Source of the DNA: Hydrogenothermaceae bacterium
GTDB lineage: Bacteria; Aquificota; Aquificia; Aquificales; Hydrogenothermaceae
Assembly: GCA_027030405.1 (NCBI GenBank)
Contig: JALVEZ010000007.1
Location: forward strand, 1-48,441
Reading direction: 5' to 3'
Length of the DNA: 48,441 bases
Shown: positions 395 to 13,143 of the stretch, one piece after another
Position numbering within the stretch: the first letter of the stretch is position 1
Layout: every line of letters starts with the position of its first letter
Translations under genes and position numbers: made by a program
Notes under the pieces: generated by a model
What the model saw: the letters and a program-made list of their open reading frames with translations, nothing else
Database searches by the model: none
What the model was told of the DNA's origin: nothing

Positions 395-1210
395 TTAATT
401 AGCTCCATTATTTCCGAACATAGAAGACAATTTGTCCTGAAGCAGTTCAGCAACAATCTGATTGGAAGTCTGAATTGTAGTTGATTTAATCTCATCTTTG
501 AGTTCACTCTCAACCATCTGGATAATCTTCTCTTGAATATTTTCTTTTACAGCTTCTGTAATCTCATCCATACTATTTTTAACATCGTCCATTATATTTT
601 TCAAAATATAGGTAATGATCATTTCTTCAATTTTATCTTTATTAATAGAAAAAGATATATCTATTGAACTTGTGGATAATTTACTGTTGGTCAGTTCAGC
701 TACTTTTATATTAATTTCCTGTTCTATATTGCCTTCCTCTTTTTCAACCTGTTTCTCCTCTTTTTGAGCAATTTTTTCTTCGTCTTTTTCATTTTTATTT
801 TCTTTAAAAGATTCAAACTCTTTAACAGCTTTATTTATTTTTGAATCAACTACCTTTTTCTGAGGAAAAACAAATTTATTTAAATCTTTTACAAACTGCC
901 CAACTTCATCAGGAATAAGATAGCCTAAAACATTTTTCTTGAAAACATCCATCGGCAAAGGATATTTTCGTGATGTGAGTATATATATAGTTTTATCTTT
1001 AAATTCTGGCTTTTCTAAAAGGGTTGAGATATCATCTTTAGCAAATTTATTATTACAGGCATCATAAATAATAAGATCAGACTCTTTACTGGATCTATCT
1101 TTTAACATTGAAATTGTGTCTTGATAAAACTTAAGATTTTCAACAGACTTTAGCTGTTCTGAAATAAGGTTTACGGCTTTAACATTACAAGTAACCACGC
1201 TAATTCTCAA
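395..1210 (-). CDS. Degenerate receiver-domain protein with helical C-terminus
   Basis: This 271-aa protein is not a recognised named family. Residues 1 to about 115 have the alternating pattern of a CheY-like receiver: a first strand RISVVTCNV, then DLIIYD with Asp50 where the phospho-acceptor of a receiver normally sits, then a YILTS strand. The acidic pair after the first strand is absent, so it is probably a pseudo-receiver. Residues about 120-165 are Lys/Glu-rich and probably coiled coil. Residues 190-271 are strongly helical. No DNA-binding or enzyme motif is visible. It is transcribed divergently from the 65-aa gene at 1341, with a 10-bp inverted repeat between them. Confidence 0.6.
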   Translation of the reverse strand: MRISVVTCNVKAVNLISEQLKSVENLKFYQDTISMLKDRSSKESDLIIYDACNNKFAKDDISTLLEKPEFKDKTIYILTSRKYPLPMDVFKKNVLGYLIPDEVGQFVKDLNKFVFPQKKVVDSKINKAVKEFESFKENKNEKDEEKIAQKEEKQVEKEEGNIEQEINIKVAELTNSKLSTSSIDISFSINKDKIEEMIITYILKNIMDDVKNSMDEITEAVKENIQEKIIQMVESELKDEIKSTTIQTSNQIVAELLQDKLSSMFGNNGAN

Positions 1211-8524: not shown

Positions 8525-9643
8525 TTAGACTGTAATATAATCTGCCATTTTTTGTGTTTCTTCTATGATATTAATGACATCTTCAATTGTTTCTGGTGTT
8601 TTAAAATTTAAACTTTCAATTATTTTTTCAATTAATACAGGAATCTTAATAAATGTTATTTCACCTTTTAAAAATTTATTAACAACTATCTCATCTGCAA
8701 CAGTCAAAACTATAGGGAAATAACTTTCTCTTTTTCCATATTCATATGCAAGTTTTAAAAGAGGAAATTTTTCAAAATCAGGTTTAAAGAAAGAAAGAGA
8801 GCCAAGTTGTGTAAAATCAAGGTAATCAACATGATTTTCCCATCGCTCAGGATAGGTCATTGCATATAAAATAGGTATTTTCATATCTGGATTTGACATA
8901 TTGGCAAGGATTGTTCCATCAACATATTCAACCATACCATGAATTATACTTTCAGGATGAATAATCACATCAATTTTTTCATAATCATAACCAAATAGAT
9001 AGTGTGCTTCTATAACTTCAAGACCTTTATTCATAAGTGTTGCACTATCTACTGTTATTTTTCTTCCCATTTTCCATTTAGGATGATTTAATGCTTCTTC
9101 TATCGTGATATCCTCAAATTCAGACATAGGTTTATTAAAAAATGGCCCTCCAGATGCAGTAAGAATGATTCTTCTTACATTTTTTCTATTTTTATCTTCC
9201 AAACATTGAAAAATAGCTGAATGTTCACTATCTATTGGAAAAATCTCATTGTATCTATCTTTTAAAATTTCACCTAAACAGATTATTGATTCTTTATTTG
9301 CTGTGGCCAATTTTTTATTGTTCTCAAGGAGGTAGTATGTCGGTTTTATTCCTGCTATACCTGATACTCCGTTAATAAAAAGATCTATATCGAGAGTAGC
9401 TAATTCTTTTAACCCTTCTTCGCCGTAAAGTATCTTTACACCTGAATCTATATTTACATTTTTATCATATTTTGCAACATACACAAATTCTGGATGAAAC
9501 TCATTTATTTGTGAAAATAATGCAGGTGATAATTTTGATGCTGATAAAAGTTTTACTTTAAACTTATCTTTGTACTGTCTTACAATCTCTAATGTTTGAG
9601 TTCCTACAGAACCTGTTGAACCTAAAATTCCGAGAGATTTCAA
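8525..9643 (-). CDS. dxr: 1-deoxy-D-xylulose 5-phosphate reductoisomerase
   Basis: This is the second enzyme of the non-mevalonate isoprenoid pathway, converting DXP to 2-C-methyl-D-erythritol 4-phosphate with NADPH and a divalent metal. Visible are the NADPH loop GSTGSVG near residue 8, the metal-site region IDSEHSA, the GGPFF loop and the MNKGLEVIEAHYLF segment. Length (372 aa) is normal. The start is TTG (9643) with AGGGGA about 10 nt upstream, embedded at the end of the preceding gene. Also known as ispC. Confidence 0.95.
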   Translation of the reverse strand: MKSLGILGSTGSVGTQTLEIVRQYKDKFKVKLLSASKLSPALFSQINEFHPEFVYVAKYDKNVNIDSGVKILYGEEGLKELATLDIDLFINGVSGIAGIKPTYYLLENNKKLATANKESIICLGEILKDRYNEIFPIDSEHSAIFQCLEDKNRKNVRRIILTASGGPFFNKPMSEFEDITIEEALNHPKWKMGRKITVDSATLMNKGLEVIEAHYLFGYDYEKIDVIIHPESIIHGMVEYVDGTILANMSNPDMKIPILYAMTYPERWENHVDYLDFTQLGSLSFFKPDFEKFPLLKLAYEYGKRESYFPIVLTVADEIVVNKFLKGEITFIKIPVLIEKIIESLNFKTPETIEDVINIIEETQKMADYITV

Positions 9644-9646
9644 CGA

Positions 9647-10261
9647 TTATATTTCCCCTATCGCCTTAACAATATATCCAAAATAATCGTTATCATCTTT
9701 CACACCGACAAACTCAATGCTGTCATTTATAACTGTTTTAGGAACAGATGATACGGTATATTTGTTTGCAAGATCTGGAAAATTATAACAATCAATAGCA
9801 GTAGCTGTGATGTAATCATTAACTAAAGCAAAACTGTAAGCCTTTAAAATAGCAGGTGGACACCATCCACACGAAGTGGTAACAAAAACTTTAATATCAA
9901 CAGGTTTATCCACTTCTTCAACGAACTCTTCAATTCTTTCTGATATATCATAATTATTAGTAGAAACCATTTTTATTGCAGTAATAAATGTGGGAAACTC
10001 TCCACCTGAAGGTAATCCCATATATCTTATTCCAAAATCTTTTTCTAAAGTTTCAATTGATATGCACGGATTTTCAAGACATTTTGTTCCTTCTTTTTCT
10101 TGAAAAGTTATTTTTTCTGAAAGCTGTGAAAGTTCAGTTAATAACTCTTTTATTTTATTTGATAAATCATCATTTTTTGAAAATAAAACAAGCTTCACAT
10201 CATCTTTTAATGAACTAAATTCATTTTTAAGTTTCTGTTTAACCTCTTCAGATAAAACCAT
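9647..10261 (-). CDS. Protein disulfide oxidoreductase, two thioredoxin folds
   Basis: This 204-aa protein resembles the glutaredoxin-like protein disulfide oxidoreductases of hyperthermophiles. The C-terminal fold has active site CGWC (131-134) with the matching cis-Pro in SSVPKT (174). The N-terminal fold keeps its cis-Pro-like GGEFPTF (Pro90) but has no CxxC; only Cys61 and Cys66 remain there, spaced CX4C. Such proteins help form or reduce cytosolic disulfides in thermophiles. Loss of one redox centre suggests a simpler thioredoxin-like activity. It overlaps no gene but ends 4 bp before the dxr start, so it heads the PDO-dxr-rseP series. Confidence 0.85.
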   Translation of the reverse strand: MVLSEEVKQKLKNEFSSLKDDVKLVLFSKNDDLSNKIKELLTELSQLSEKITFQEKEGTKCLENPCISIETLEKDFGIRYMGLPSGGEFPTFITAIKMVSTNNYDISERIEEFVEEVDKPVDIKVFVTTSCGWCPPAILKAYSFALVNDYITATAIDCYNFPDLANKYTVSSVPKTVINDSIEFVGVKDDNDYFGYIVKAIGEI

Positions 10262-10328: not shown

Positions 10329-10610
10329 TTATGATGAAATTCCTTTTATAGCACTATCTATAATAAATTGAGAAAATGTGTATCGTCCTTTTTTACCATC
10401 TTTTTTTCTTTTTCTTTTTTCCTTTTGATACGCCATTAATAACTGATCGTATTCCTCTGCAGTAGGATACAGACTGACACGTTCTTTTTCGACTTTTAAA
10501 TCCTCTGTTTCATCTACTTCCTGCTCTATCTCCTCTTTTTTCTTGGTTTTCTTTTTTACCTTAACGATATCTTCCTTAAACATTTCATCATACGCCGTTT
10601 TCTTAGCCAT
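10329..10610 (-). CDS. Small basic ribbon-helix-helix-like protein, putative ParA partner
   Basis: This 93-aa protein has a highly charged Lys/Glu N-terminal half and a C-terminal part with a short strand (RVSLYPT), a helix, a basic loop and a second helix (TFSQFIIDSAIKG). This layout is typical of ribbon-helix-helix DNA-binding proteins. Two ATGs are adjacent; the second (10610) has AGGAG at 6 nt, whereas the first (10613) is only 3 nt away. The gene overlaps the end of parA by about 8 bp. By analogy with type Ib partition systems it could be the centromere-binding partner of ParA. No ParB-type gene is visible, so this is inference. Confidence 0.65.
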   Translation of the reverse strand: MAKKTAYDEMFKEDIVKVKKKTKKKEEIEQEVDETEDLKVEKERVSLYPTAEEYDQLLMAYQKEKRKRKKDGKKGRYTFSQFIIDSAIKGISS

Positions 10611-11355
10611 CATCCTCTCCTATGGTATTTATTCTTTTTTCTATTTGGTTCATAAGTTTTAGCATATCTAAAGATACAGCAGAACGTGGATCAAGTTCCC
10701 ATACTGGTACTCCAAGTGCCAGAGCTTCAGATATACGGATACTATCTCTAACTGGTTGTAAAAAGTTATCAGGAAAAGCGTTCTCCAGATTATTTAAAAT
10801 AGCCTTTGAAAAATTGGCTTTTTTATATCTCATAACAGCAATACCGGTAACATCCATCTTTTTTCTTCTAAACTTTTCAATTTTAGGTAATGTTTCCAAA
10901 AATATATTTAAACCTTTCAGAGCAGCTCTTGATGTATCAAGAGGAACTAAAACATGTGTTGAAGGAATAAGGGCATTTGCTGTAAATATGGACAAAGAAG
11001 GTGGCGTATCAATCACTACAAAATCATAACCGTCAAGATTCTCTAAAAATGTTTCAAGGGCATAAACATCCTGAACTCCCAACGCTTCAAATCTTGAAAG
11101 TTCGATATCAGAATAGATAATATCCAGATTCTTTTTTGCATTAAAAGGAGTTAGCTCTTTATTTTCAAAAATATTTTTTATATGGTGAGATTCATCTATT
11201 TCTTGATTGCCTAAAAACATCGAAGAGAAATTTCCTTGCATATCAAGATCAACTGCCAGAACTTTACCTTTACTTCTTAAGTGTTCGGCAAGATGAAATG
11301 CTAACGAGGTTTTTCCAGTTCCCCCTTTTTGAATACTTACTGTAATAACCTTCAT
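10603..11355 (-). CDS. parA: ParA/Soj-family partition ATPase
   Basis: This 250-aa ATPase has the deviant Walker A KGGTGKTS (residues 10-17), the A' motif VDLDMQGN, and Walker B VVIDTPPSLS. ParA proteins drive segregation of origin DNA by ATP-dependent binding to the nucleoid. The frame extends to TTG 11361, but ATG 11355, 6 nt after GAAGG, is preferred. It is transcribed away from the adjacent oriC-like region, as parA genes commonly sit at origins. Its downstream partner is a small RHH-like protein and not ParB. MinD-like roles are less likely because no membrane-targeting tail is seen. Confidence 0.9.
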   Translation of the reverse strand: MKVITVSIQKGGTGKTSLAFHLAEHLRSKGKVLAVDLDMQGNFSSMFLGNQEIDESHHIKNIFENKELTPFNAKKNLDIIYSDIELSRFEALGVQDVYALETFLENLDGYDFVVIDTPPSLSIFTANALIPSTHVLVPLDTSRAALKGLNIFLETLPKIEKFRRKKMDVTGIAVMRYKKANFSKAILNNLENAFPDNFLQPVRDSIRISEALALGVPVWELDPRSAVSLDMLKLMNQIEKRINTIGEDDG

Positions 11356-11460
11356 AACCAAACCTTCTCCCTAATTTTTCATTTTTTCGTAAAAAACATG
11401 AAATTCTTTAACGTTTTAACTTTAAAATGTTTATTTAGTTTATTCTAATTATTATATAAA

Positions 11461-11530
11461 AATATTTTCTATTTTTGTTTTTAAATTTTTTCTTTATTTT
11501 TATATTTATTTTTTATTTTATTTTTTTAAA
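11461..11530. other. T-rich DNA unwinding element
   Basis: Almost pure A/T with long T runs on the plus strand (for example around 11470-11500 and 11505-11527) lies immediately left of the DnaA-trios. Position and composition fit the duplex-unwinding element of oriC. Confidence 0.75.
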
Positions 11531-11532
11531 GT

Positions 11533-11556
11533 AAATAATAATAATAGTAATAATAG
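11533..11556 (+). promoter_or_regulatory. Eight consecutive DnaA-trios (basal unwinding motif)
   Basis: Read 3'->5' on the plus strand, away from the DnaA box at 11559, the bases give GAT AAT AAT GAT AAT AAT AAT AAA. All eight fit the published 3'-[G/A]A[T/A]-5' DnaA-trio consensus. Only two bases (TC) separate the first trio from the box. The trios are thought to capture single-stranded DNA in a DnaA filament. Confidence 0.82.
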
Positions 11557-11558
11557 TC

Positions 11559-11655
11559 TGTGGATAACTTTAAAAATTGGGTTTATAGCCTTTAATATCA
11601 ACGATCTGAGCCTGTGGATAACTATGTGGATAACCTGTGGATTTAATGTGGATAA
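11559..11655. repeat. DnaA boxes, left group (TGTGGATAA orientation)
   Basis: Perfect boxes lie at 11559-11567, 11613-11621, 11625-11633 and 11647-11655, plus a degenerate TGTGGATTT at 11636-11644. The last four begin 12, 11 and 11 bp apart, roughly one helical turn, so DnaA would load on one face as a filament. The first box abuts the DnaA-trios. Confidence 0.9.
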
Positions 11656-11737
11656 CTTTTTTTCAAAAAAATCTATATTTTAGAATACTTATACATTTTT
11701 AATTTGAAAACATTATTGTTTTTCAGATACTTAAACC

Positions 11738-11746
11738 TGTGGATAA
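11738..11746. repeat. Isolated DnaA box
   Basis: A perfect TGTGGATAA in the same orientation as the left group, 91 bp right of the previous box. Confidence 0.85.
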
Positions 11747-11764
11747 CTTTTTTTAAAGATTGAG

Positions 11765-11826
11765 TTATCCACAACTTATCCACAATTTTTTTGGAGTTAT
11801 CCACAATTTTTTGCCACTTATCCACA
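11765..11826. repeat. DnaA boxes, inverted middle group (TTATCCACA orientation)
   Basis: Four perfect boxes at 11765, 11776, 11797 and 11818 (9 bp each), with starts 11, 21 and 21 bp apart, that is about one, two and two helical turns. They are opposite in orientation to every other box. Confidence 0.9.
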
Positions 11827-11831
11827 ATTAA

Positions 11832-11940
11832 TGTGGATAACTTTTCATCCATGTGGATAACTTAAAAAGTTTATGTGGATAACTTGGATTTAGAATTGAG
11901 AATAGCTTAGAAACACAATGATTATCTCAATTGTGGATAA
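11832..11940. repeat. DnaA boxes, right group (TGTGGATAA orientation)
   Basis: Perfect boxes at 11832-11840, 11852-11860, 11874-11882 and 11932-11940. The first three begin 20 and 22 bp apart. Confidence 0.9.
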
Positions 11941-11966
11941 CTTTTCAATGCTCTAAAATTATGATA

Positions 11967-11984
11967 TATTAGGAAATCCTAATA
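11967..11984. repeat. Palindrome between oriC and the GGDEF gene
   Basis: TATTAGGA-AA-TCCTAATA: 8-bp perfect arms with a 2-bp centre, 27 bp beyond the last DnaA box and 104 bp upstream of the GGDEF start. Candidate operator of an unknown regulator. Confidence 0.5.
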
Positions 11985-12087
11985 ATCAAATTTTTGTAGA
12001 TATTGTAAAAATATACTTAATGTAGAAATAACAAAAAGCTAATCTTAGACGAATAAATAAAAATATAACAATAAGGGAAAGGTTAGA

Positions 12088-13143
12088 ATGAAACCTATAA
12101 GATGTTTATTATACGAAAAATTAAGAAGTCAAAAAGAGTTATCTCCAGAAGAAGTGAAGACATTAATGAATGTAGTTAGGAACGAGATAAATTTTTTAAT
12201 TCGAAATAATATTCTTCTAACGCCTGTAAACTATGAACGATGGTTTTATGTTTTTTGCTATGTTTATGAAAATAGAAGAGAGTTGACCGATCTAGAAATT
12301 TTTGGACTGTATAAGGAAGTTTATGGTTCAGAGGCTTCTTTCCAGACTTTTTCTGAAGAAATGCGTCCAAATGGATATGTGGAAAAATTAAAAGTTATAG
12401 CTTCTGAGATAGATGAAAAATTAAAGGAAATTGTTGATACTTTGACTGTTTATGAAGAAAATTTAGATAAACACACTGAAAAACTTGAAAAAGAAAAAGA
12501 ATGTTTGGATAAAACAAATATAGAAGATCTTTTGTCAAATATTCTTGAAGAACTGAAAGAAATTAAAAAGGAAAACTCTACACTAAAATCAGAAATTAAT
12601 CATTATCACTCTGAGATAAATAGATTGAAAGAAGAACTTTCCGTGGCTAAAAAAGAGGCAAATGTTGACCATCTGACAGGGCTTATAAATAGAAGAAGAT
12701 TTGAAAGAACTCTTTATACTATGCTTGAAGATTTTCATAAAAGAGGATATCCATTTTCAATAATTCTTTTAGATTTAGATGATTTCAAAAAGATAAATGA
12801 TACGTATGGTCATGCTGTTGGTGATGAAGTGTTAAAGGAAGTTGCATCTATTCTAAAAAATTATCTTAGAGCAAACACTGTTATCAGTAGAATAGGTGGT
12901 GAAGAGTTTGCTATACTGCTTCCTGGTGTTGAACTTGAAGATGCAGTTCATATAGCAAATAGGATAAGAAATCTTATTGCTAATCGAACAATAAGAGTGA
13001 ACGGATACGAAATTCATATAACAGCAAGTTTAGGTGTGACACAGGTTCAAAAAGATGATAACTTCAATAGAATAATGGAAAGAGTTGATTCATTGCTTTA
13101 TCTTTCTAAACGAGGTGGAAAAAATAGAGTTGAAGTTAGATAG
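12088..13143 (+). CDS. GGDEF diguanylate cyclase
   Basis: This 351-aa protein has a helical N-terminal domain of about 125 residues of unknown type, a coiled-coil linker (about 130-190, ELKEIKKE and similar), and a C-terminal GGDEF domain with DHLTGLINRR, LDLDDFKKIND and active-site GGEEF (270-274). The active site is intact, so it should make cyclic di-GMP from two GTP. The inhibitory I-site RxxD upstream reads RANT (261-264) and lacks the Asp, so product feedback is probably lost. No transmembrane segment is seen. The SD AAAGG precedes ATG 12088. The end overlaps the convergent ybeY by 8 bp. It is the first gene right of oriC. Confidence 0.9.
   Translation: MKPIRCLLYEKLRSQKELSPEEVKTLMNVVRNEINFLIRNNILLTPVNYERWFYVFCYVYENRRELTDLEIFGLYKEVYGSEASFQTFSEEMRPNGYVEKLKVIASEIDEKLKEIVDTLTVYEENLDKHTEKLEKEKECLDKTNIEDLLSNILEELKEIKKENSTLKSEINHYHSEINRLKEELSVAKKEANVDHLTGLINRRRFERTLYTMLEDFHKRGYPFSIILLDLDDFKKINDTYGHAVGDEVLKEVASILKNYLRANTVISRIGGEEFAILLPGVELEDAVHIANRIRNLIANRTIRVNGYEIHITASLGVTQVQKDDNFNRIMERVDSLLYLSKRGGKNRVEVR

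Follow-up and report, generated by a model that had tools for sequence, protein, structure and literature searches.

A predicted chromosomal replication origin with DnaA-trios and a family-wide DnaA-box array in Hydrogenothermaceae

A 48,441-nt stretch of a Hydrogenothermaceae genome (hereafter, the window), which forms contig C7 of a 253-contig assembly, carries a dense array of DnaA boxes between two genes, and this raises the question of whether replication of the chromosome starts there. Replication origins in the Aquificales are hard to place because their chromosomes show little overall skew and dnaA has no fixed linkage to oriC. No experimentally mapped origin for the family was found in the open-access literature; predictions for some relatives may exist in DoriC, a resource outside the scope of that search. 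Based on the sequence, the gap at 11362–12087 is predicted to be the chromosomal replication origin (oriC) with a probability of about 0.93. The preliminary description had regarded it as a probable origin, and this reading is supported by DnaA-trios, the uniqueness of the locus, the family-wide occurrence of the array and a switch of strand asymmetry.

DnaA boxes and unwinding elements in the gap

The gap extends from the start of a parA-like ORF on the minus strand (bounded at 11361) to a GGDEF gene beginning at 12088, and no ORF of at least 80 aa was present inside it. An exact-match scan revealed 13 perfect TTATCCACA DnaA boxes at 11559–11940, distributed as nine on the minus strand (written forward as TGTGGATAA) and four on the plus strand (TTATCCACA). 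The chance expectation in these 382 bp is 0.0068 boxes (P ~1e-38). One further exact box was located in the window (671–679). The whole 2.03-Mb assembly contained 49 exact boxes, and the 36 outside the array can be considered background, since the reversed box pattern used as a control occurred 41 times genome-wide. Closely spaced tandem exact boxes were found at the array locus only.

The array begins with box 1 (11559–11567), which is followed after 54 bp by box 2 (11613–11621) and then by box 3 (11625–11633), a near copy, TGTGGATTT, having two mismatches (11636–11644) and standing in an 11-bp register with its neighbours, and box 4 (11647–11655), all on the minus strand. A 91-bp step leads to box 5 (11738–11746, minus strand). 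The inverted block opens 27 bp later with box 6 (11765–11773) and includes box 7 (11776–11784), box 8 (11797–11805) and box 9 (11818–11826) on the plus strand, the last three being spaced at 21 bp. The first direction is resumed by boxes 10 (11832–11840), 11 (11852–11860), 12 (11874–11882) and 13 (11932–11940), on the minus strand. An Rfam scan over the window returned no matches.

The G+C content decreased to 8.5% in a 140-bp tract at 11400–11540, compared to 30.5% for the whole window, and judging from its composition and sequence this tract may serve as the duplex-unwinding element. The number and orientation of the exact boxes, the single near copy, the lack of genes and the AT-rich tract had all been given in the preliminary description, and each agreed with the present scans.

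Seven DnaA-trios, TAATAATAATAGTAATAATAG, occupy 11536–11556 on the plus strand and are separated from the exact, trio-proximal box 1 by the 2-bp spacer TC (11557–11558). Read away from box 1, the tract is 3'-GAT-AAT-AAT-GAT-AAT-AAT-AAT-5', which is the DnaA-trio motif; published trios are 5'-TAG/TAA-3' repeats (PMC10316083). Such TAG/TAA repeats in the origins of B. subtilis, H. pylori and T. maritima are required for opening or bound by DnaA (PMC10316083, PMC6669920). The published search rule for a basal unwinding system (BUS) requires three or more trios no farther than 16 bp from a DnaA box (PMC8287927), and TAATAATAATAGTAATAATAG-TC-TGTGGATAA combines a box, a spacer of no more than 16 bp and at least three trios. 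A complete BUS consisting of seven trios, a 2-bp spacer and a box could thus be assigned to 11536–11567, beside the 140-bp AT-rich tract. The DnaA-trios are the most specific element of the locus and had played no part in the argument of the preliminary description.

Comparison with the B. subtilis oriC and its BUS revealed an exact box, a short spacer, repeated TAG/TAA trios and an AT-rich tract beyond them in both (PMC6669920, PMC8287927). The spacer is 2 bp long here, whereas 13 bp is the commonest length (PMC6669920, PMC8287927), and a single box lies next to the trios here, while B. subtilis has a tandem pair; relatives of genus g7 carry an overlapping pair. In contrast to the B. subtilis oriC, the locus lacks an adjacent dnaA and has 13 perfect boxes, of which the central block is inverted. 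The oriC of T. maritima is likewise a thermophile origin with TAG repeats in its unwinding element and boxes in both directions, although the boxes that T. maritima DnaA recognises in its minimal origin number five, compared to 13 E. coli-type boxes here (PMC10316083). A further origin that was compared has a similar mixed TAA/TAG trio tract but is bipartite and split by dnaA, unlike the single array described here, which is far from dnaA.

Conservation of the array and its distance from dnaA

The array was compared across 61 genomes, comprising the genome itself and 60 relatives; the family accounts for 37 genomes in ten genera, and the order includes at least three families. Tandem exact boxes occurred in 26 of the 61 genomes, and 24 of these are among the 37 family members (own genome included). 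All ten genera were represented, genus g9 by a single pair only. When the arrays were oriented by their trio side, the 54-bp distance from box 1 to box 2 was common to genera g1, g2, g3, g5 and g7, and the other spacings kept were steps of 11–12 (or 22) bp after it, a long gap of approximately 91 bp and a turn to the inverted boxes at 27–28 bp. The spacings of box 5 and box 6 in the window belong to this conserved pattern, and the adjacency of trios and box is retained in most relatives. Genera g6 and g10 and parts of g4 and g8 carried more divergent arrays.

The genes flanking the array vary between genera while the spacing holds; the array is therefore conserved more strongly than its neighbours. 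On one side, a thioredoxin-domain protein gene (9647–10261, minus strand), retained beside the array in three further genera, is followed by dxr (8525–9643, minus strand). This thioredoxin-dxr pair adjoins the array in the window, in G011 (g4), in G005 (g6), and in G028 and four more genomes of g8. Core chromosomal genes, namely rseP, dxr, ybeY, phoH, rimM and pyrB, make up the flank, and the best solved-structure match of YbeY was AQ_1354, whose locus tag is one of Aquifex. The gene that borders the array on its other side, encoding a GGDEF protein (diguanylate cyclase; 12088–13143, plus strand), is not a conserved neighbour.

A small gene pair (84–87 aa and 129–132 aa) of toxin-antitoxin-like appearance was observed beside the origin in genus g7, at 10976–11616 of stretch L088 in G024 and also in stretches L104 and L106. 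Outside the family, a search allowing up to three mismatches gave no clear orthologue of the array in family f2 of the order. One possible cluster was noted there in G059 (C1, around 1,673,300); it contains TTATCCACA and TTTTCCACA in steps of 11 bp and lies upstream of a gene resembling those for response regulators.

Adjacency to dnaA, which is common at an oriC and not required for one, is not seen at the array. The genome's own dnaA is on contig C114, and the distance between dnaA and the array ranged from 47 to 861 kb in relatives with both on one contig (dnaA at 868,042 on G001:C2, 886,602 on G024:C1 and 194,714 on G003:C11). The preliminary description held that a denser box cluster beside dnaA would speak against the locus. 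No such cluster was found, as the examined dnaA stretch of C114 contained no boxes at up to one mismatch. The standard box-binding domain is present in the DnaA of the family.

By analogy with B. subtilis, H. pylori and T. maritima, DnaA would bind the box array, and an oligomer of ATP-DnaA starting from box 1 (11559–11567) would be laid onto the plus-strand trios just to its left. The oligomer on the trios would then open the AT-rich tract at approximately 11400–11556, after which the helicase would be loaded, as in those three bacteria, and two forks would depart in opposite directions. As the spacing is conserved, the layout of the array, with two same-direction blocks around an inverted block, may matter for assembly of the complex.

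Strand asymmetry, neighbouring genes and alternative readings

Raw GC skew of the window and of sampled stretches of G001 and G024 was dominated by gene orientation and was set aside. Because raw skew follows gene orientation, the asymmetry was evaluated at fourfold-degenerate sites after correction for the coding effect. When ±11 kb around the array were pooled over 22 genomes (eight of them from one genus), the fourfold TA asymmetry was negative to the left and positive to the right of the array. The pooled TA value was +0.054, and it was positive in 19 of 22 genomes, whereas random control sets of 22 stretches drawn from two genomes gave a mean of −0.003 with an SD of 0.007; the difference of approximately 8 null SDs should not be read as a strict probability, since two genomes supplied all the controls and a single genus contributes eight of the 22. 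GC asymmetry pointed in the same direction weakly (+0.021 compared to +0.004 in controls, SD 0.011; positive in 15 of 22; t 1.2 over genomes). A skew inflection at the locus, which had been named as a check in the preliminary description, was thus observed as a fourfold TA switch in the pooled genomes, with a weak GC component.

The sampled data of G024 showed no clear global switch. The chromosome of G001 (1,930,284 bp, 99.6% tiled) could be evaluated as a whole. As assembled, one strand appears to be leading over most of it, and the best origin fell at 1.30 Mb with a score of 15.6. The sign changes, near 1.09 and 1.85 Mb, coincide with the two copies of a 5,090-bp inverted repeat (99.9% identity; C2 at 1,091,099–1,096,186 and 1,849,000–1,854,089), which is longer than any other near-identical inverted repeat in this chromosome and corresponds to the 16S-23S-5S operon. 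Between these copies the asymmetry is reversed, pointing to a 0.76-Mb inversion between the rRNA operons that is either recent or flipping. Near-unidirectional replication was also considered for G001 and was rejected because both sign changes sit at this inverted repeat.

With the inversion undone in coordinates, G001 resolved into two clean arms having a terminus at approximately 1.0 Mb and a score of 22.1, compared to a random-sign maximum of 8.4. The origin bin was 10 kb (bootstrap 5–95%, −20 to +10 kb), and the array, at 6.6–6.9 kb, lies within approximately 20 kb of the best origin. The dnaA gene of G001 (868 kb) is nearer to the inferred terminus than to the origin. Flipping roughly the other half of the chromosome instead scores nearly equally (21.6 compared to 21.8), and the G001 fit is therefore used together with the independent pooled test.

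These results also bear on the possibility that the array is a DnaA-titration or timing locus, similar to datA or the DnaA-box clusters of B. subtilis, which would bind DnaA and not be opened, the origin being elsewhere. A high box density away from dnaA would suit such a locus, but the trios and AT-rich tract are correctly placed for opening, the asymmetry switches at the array (within approximately 20 kb in G001), and G001 has no second cluster, its densest other 500-bp window containing 4 boxes at up to one mismatch compared to 15 at the array. A titration role in place of an origin is accordingly considered very unlikely.

Several results concern the neighbouring genes. The ParA-family ATPase next to the gap (10603–11361, minus strand) is plasmid-like, lies outside the origin and is not conserved there in relatives; no close match was found in the 60 relatives at 1e-30. 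Its best plasmid relative, with 34% identity, is encoded on plasmid pATS1 of Athalassotoga (Thermotogota), where an RHH gene overlaps the end of parA. Here, the end of parA is likewise overlapped by a 94-aa ORF (10329–10613, minus strand), which has the position of the RHH partner and gave no family match. No ParB-domain partner was found beside this parA, and a canonical parS was found neither near the array nor, at up to two mismatches, in the own genome, of which contig C2 carries a standard parA-parB pair. The claim of the preliminary description that parA helps to define the origin could not be upheld, and linkage to a partition gene was dropped as an argument, the adjacent parA being plasmid-like and the chromosomal-type pair lying elsewhere. 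Its sequence relationships suggest that a plasmid-type partition cassette probably landed beside the origin, and it is possible that parA and the 94-aa ORF (10329–11361), absent from the relatives, form a second partition system.

Control of parA or the GGDEF gene by DnaA might be proposed for an array between two divergent genes with nine promoter-like sites (6.4 expected from shuffles), but conservation extends to the array and to neither of the two genes, and relatives carry the array without them, which makes this reading highly improbable. The Thermotogota plasmid ParA and the RHH gene next to it would point to an integrated plasmid that has its origin and partition site here. This reading is given a negligible likelihood, as the neighbours scanned included no plasmid replication gene, the flank consists of core genes (dxr, rseP, ybeY, rimM), and conservation of the array in relatives without parA contradicts it.

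Box and initiator in genus g8 and meaning for the family

In genus g8, four genomes (G025, G021, G031 and G015) carry TTATCAACA arrays at the orthologous locus, with the same thioredoxin-dxr flank. Position 6 was A or G and never C in every box-like 9-mer counted in these four arrays. For Mollicutes, the sequence TT(T/A)TCAACA was put forward as a DnaA box (PMC3322544). The DnaA of the same four genomes reads KKKNHST, compared to KDHST or KDHTT in the other DnaAs examined; the signature Asp (DHTT/DHST) is replaced by Asn in these four and is present in all others examined. In E. coli this Asp (D433) makes contact with the position-7 base and has been termed highly conserved (PMC8235120). G028, also of g8, keeps both the TTATCCACA boxes and the Asp, with C at position 6 in all but one 9-mer. 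The DnaAs of G007 and G033 have the Asp, and the origins of both were not located; many degenerate box-like repeats, TTATTCACA and TTAATCACA, were observed in G007 (g8) on C1 around 493,900.

From these sequences it appears fairly likely that the origin in its entirety and its initiator changed together within g8, a natural and still traceable switch of initiator specificity. The co-variation was seen in few genomes and may reflect a single event on one branch.

The predicted origin is of an ordinary kind, a bacterial oriC with a BUS; its interest is in the family-wide architecture, alongside the co-change of box and initiator in g8. An array that has trios, keeps its spacing and occurs throughout the family provides a testable origin for these deep-branching thermophiles, and the rRNA-operon inversion of G001 gives one tangible cause for the failure of skew methods. 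If the switch is true, g8 would be a natural experiment in which an initiator and about a dozen sites changed specificity together.
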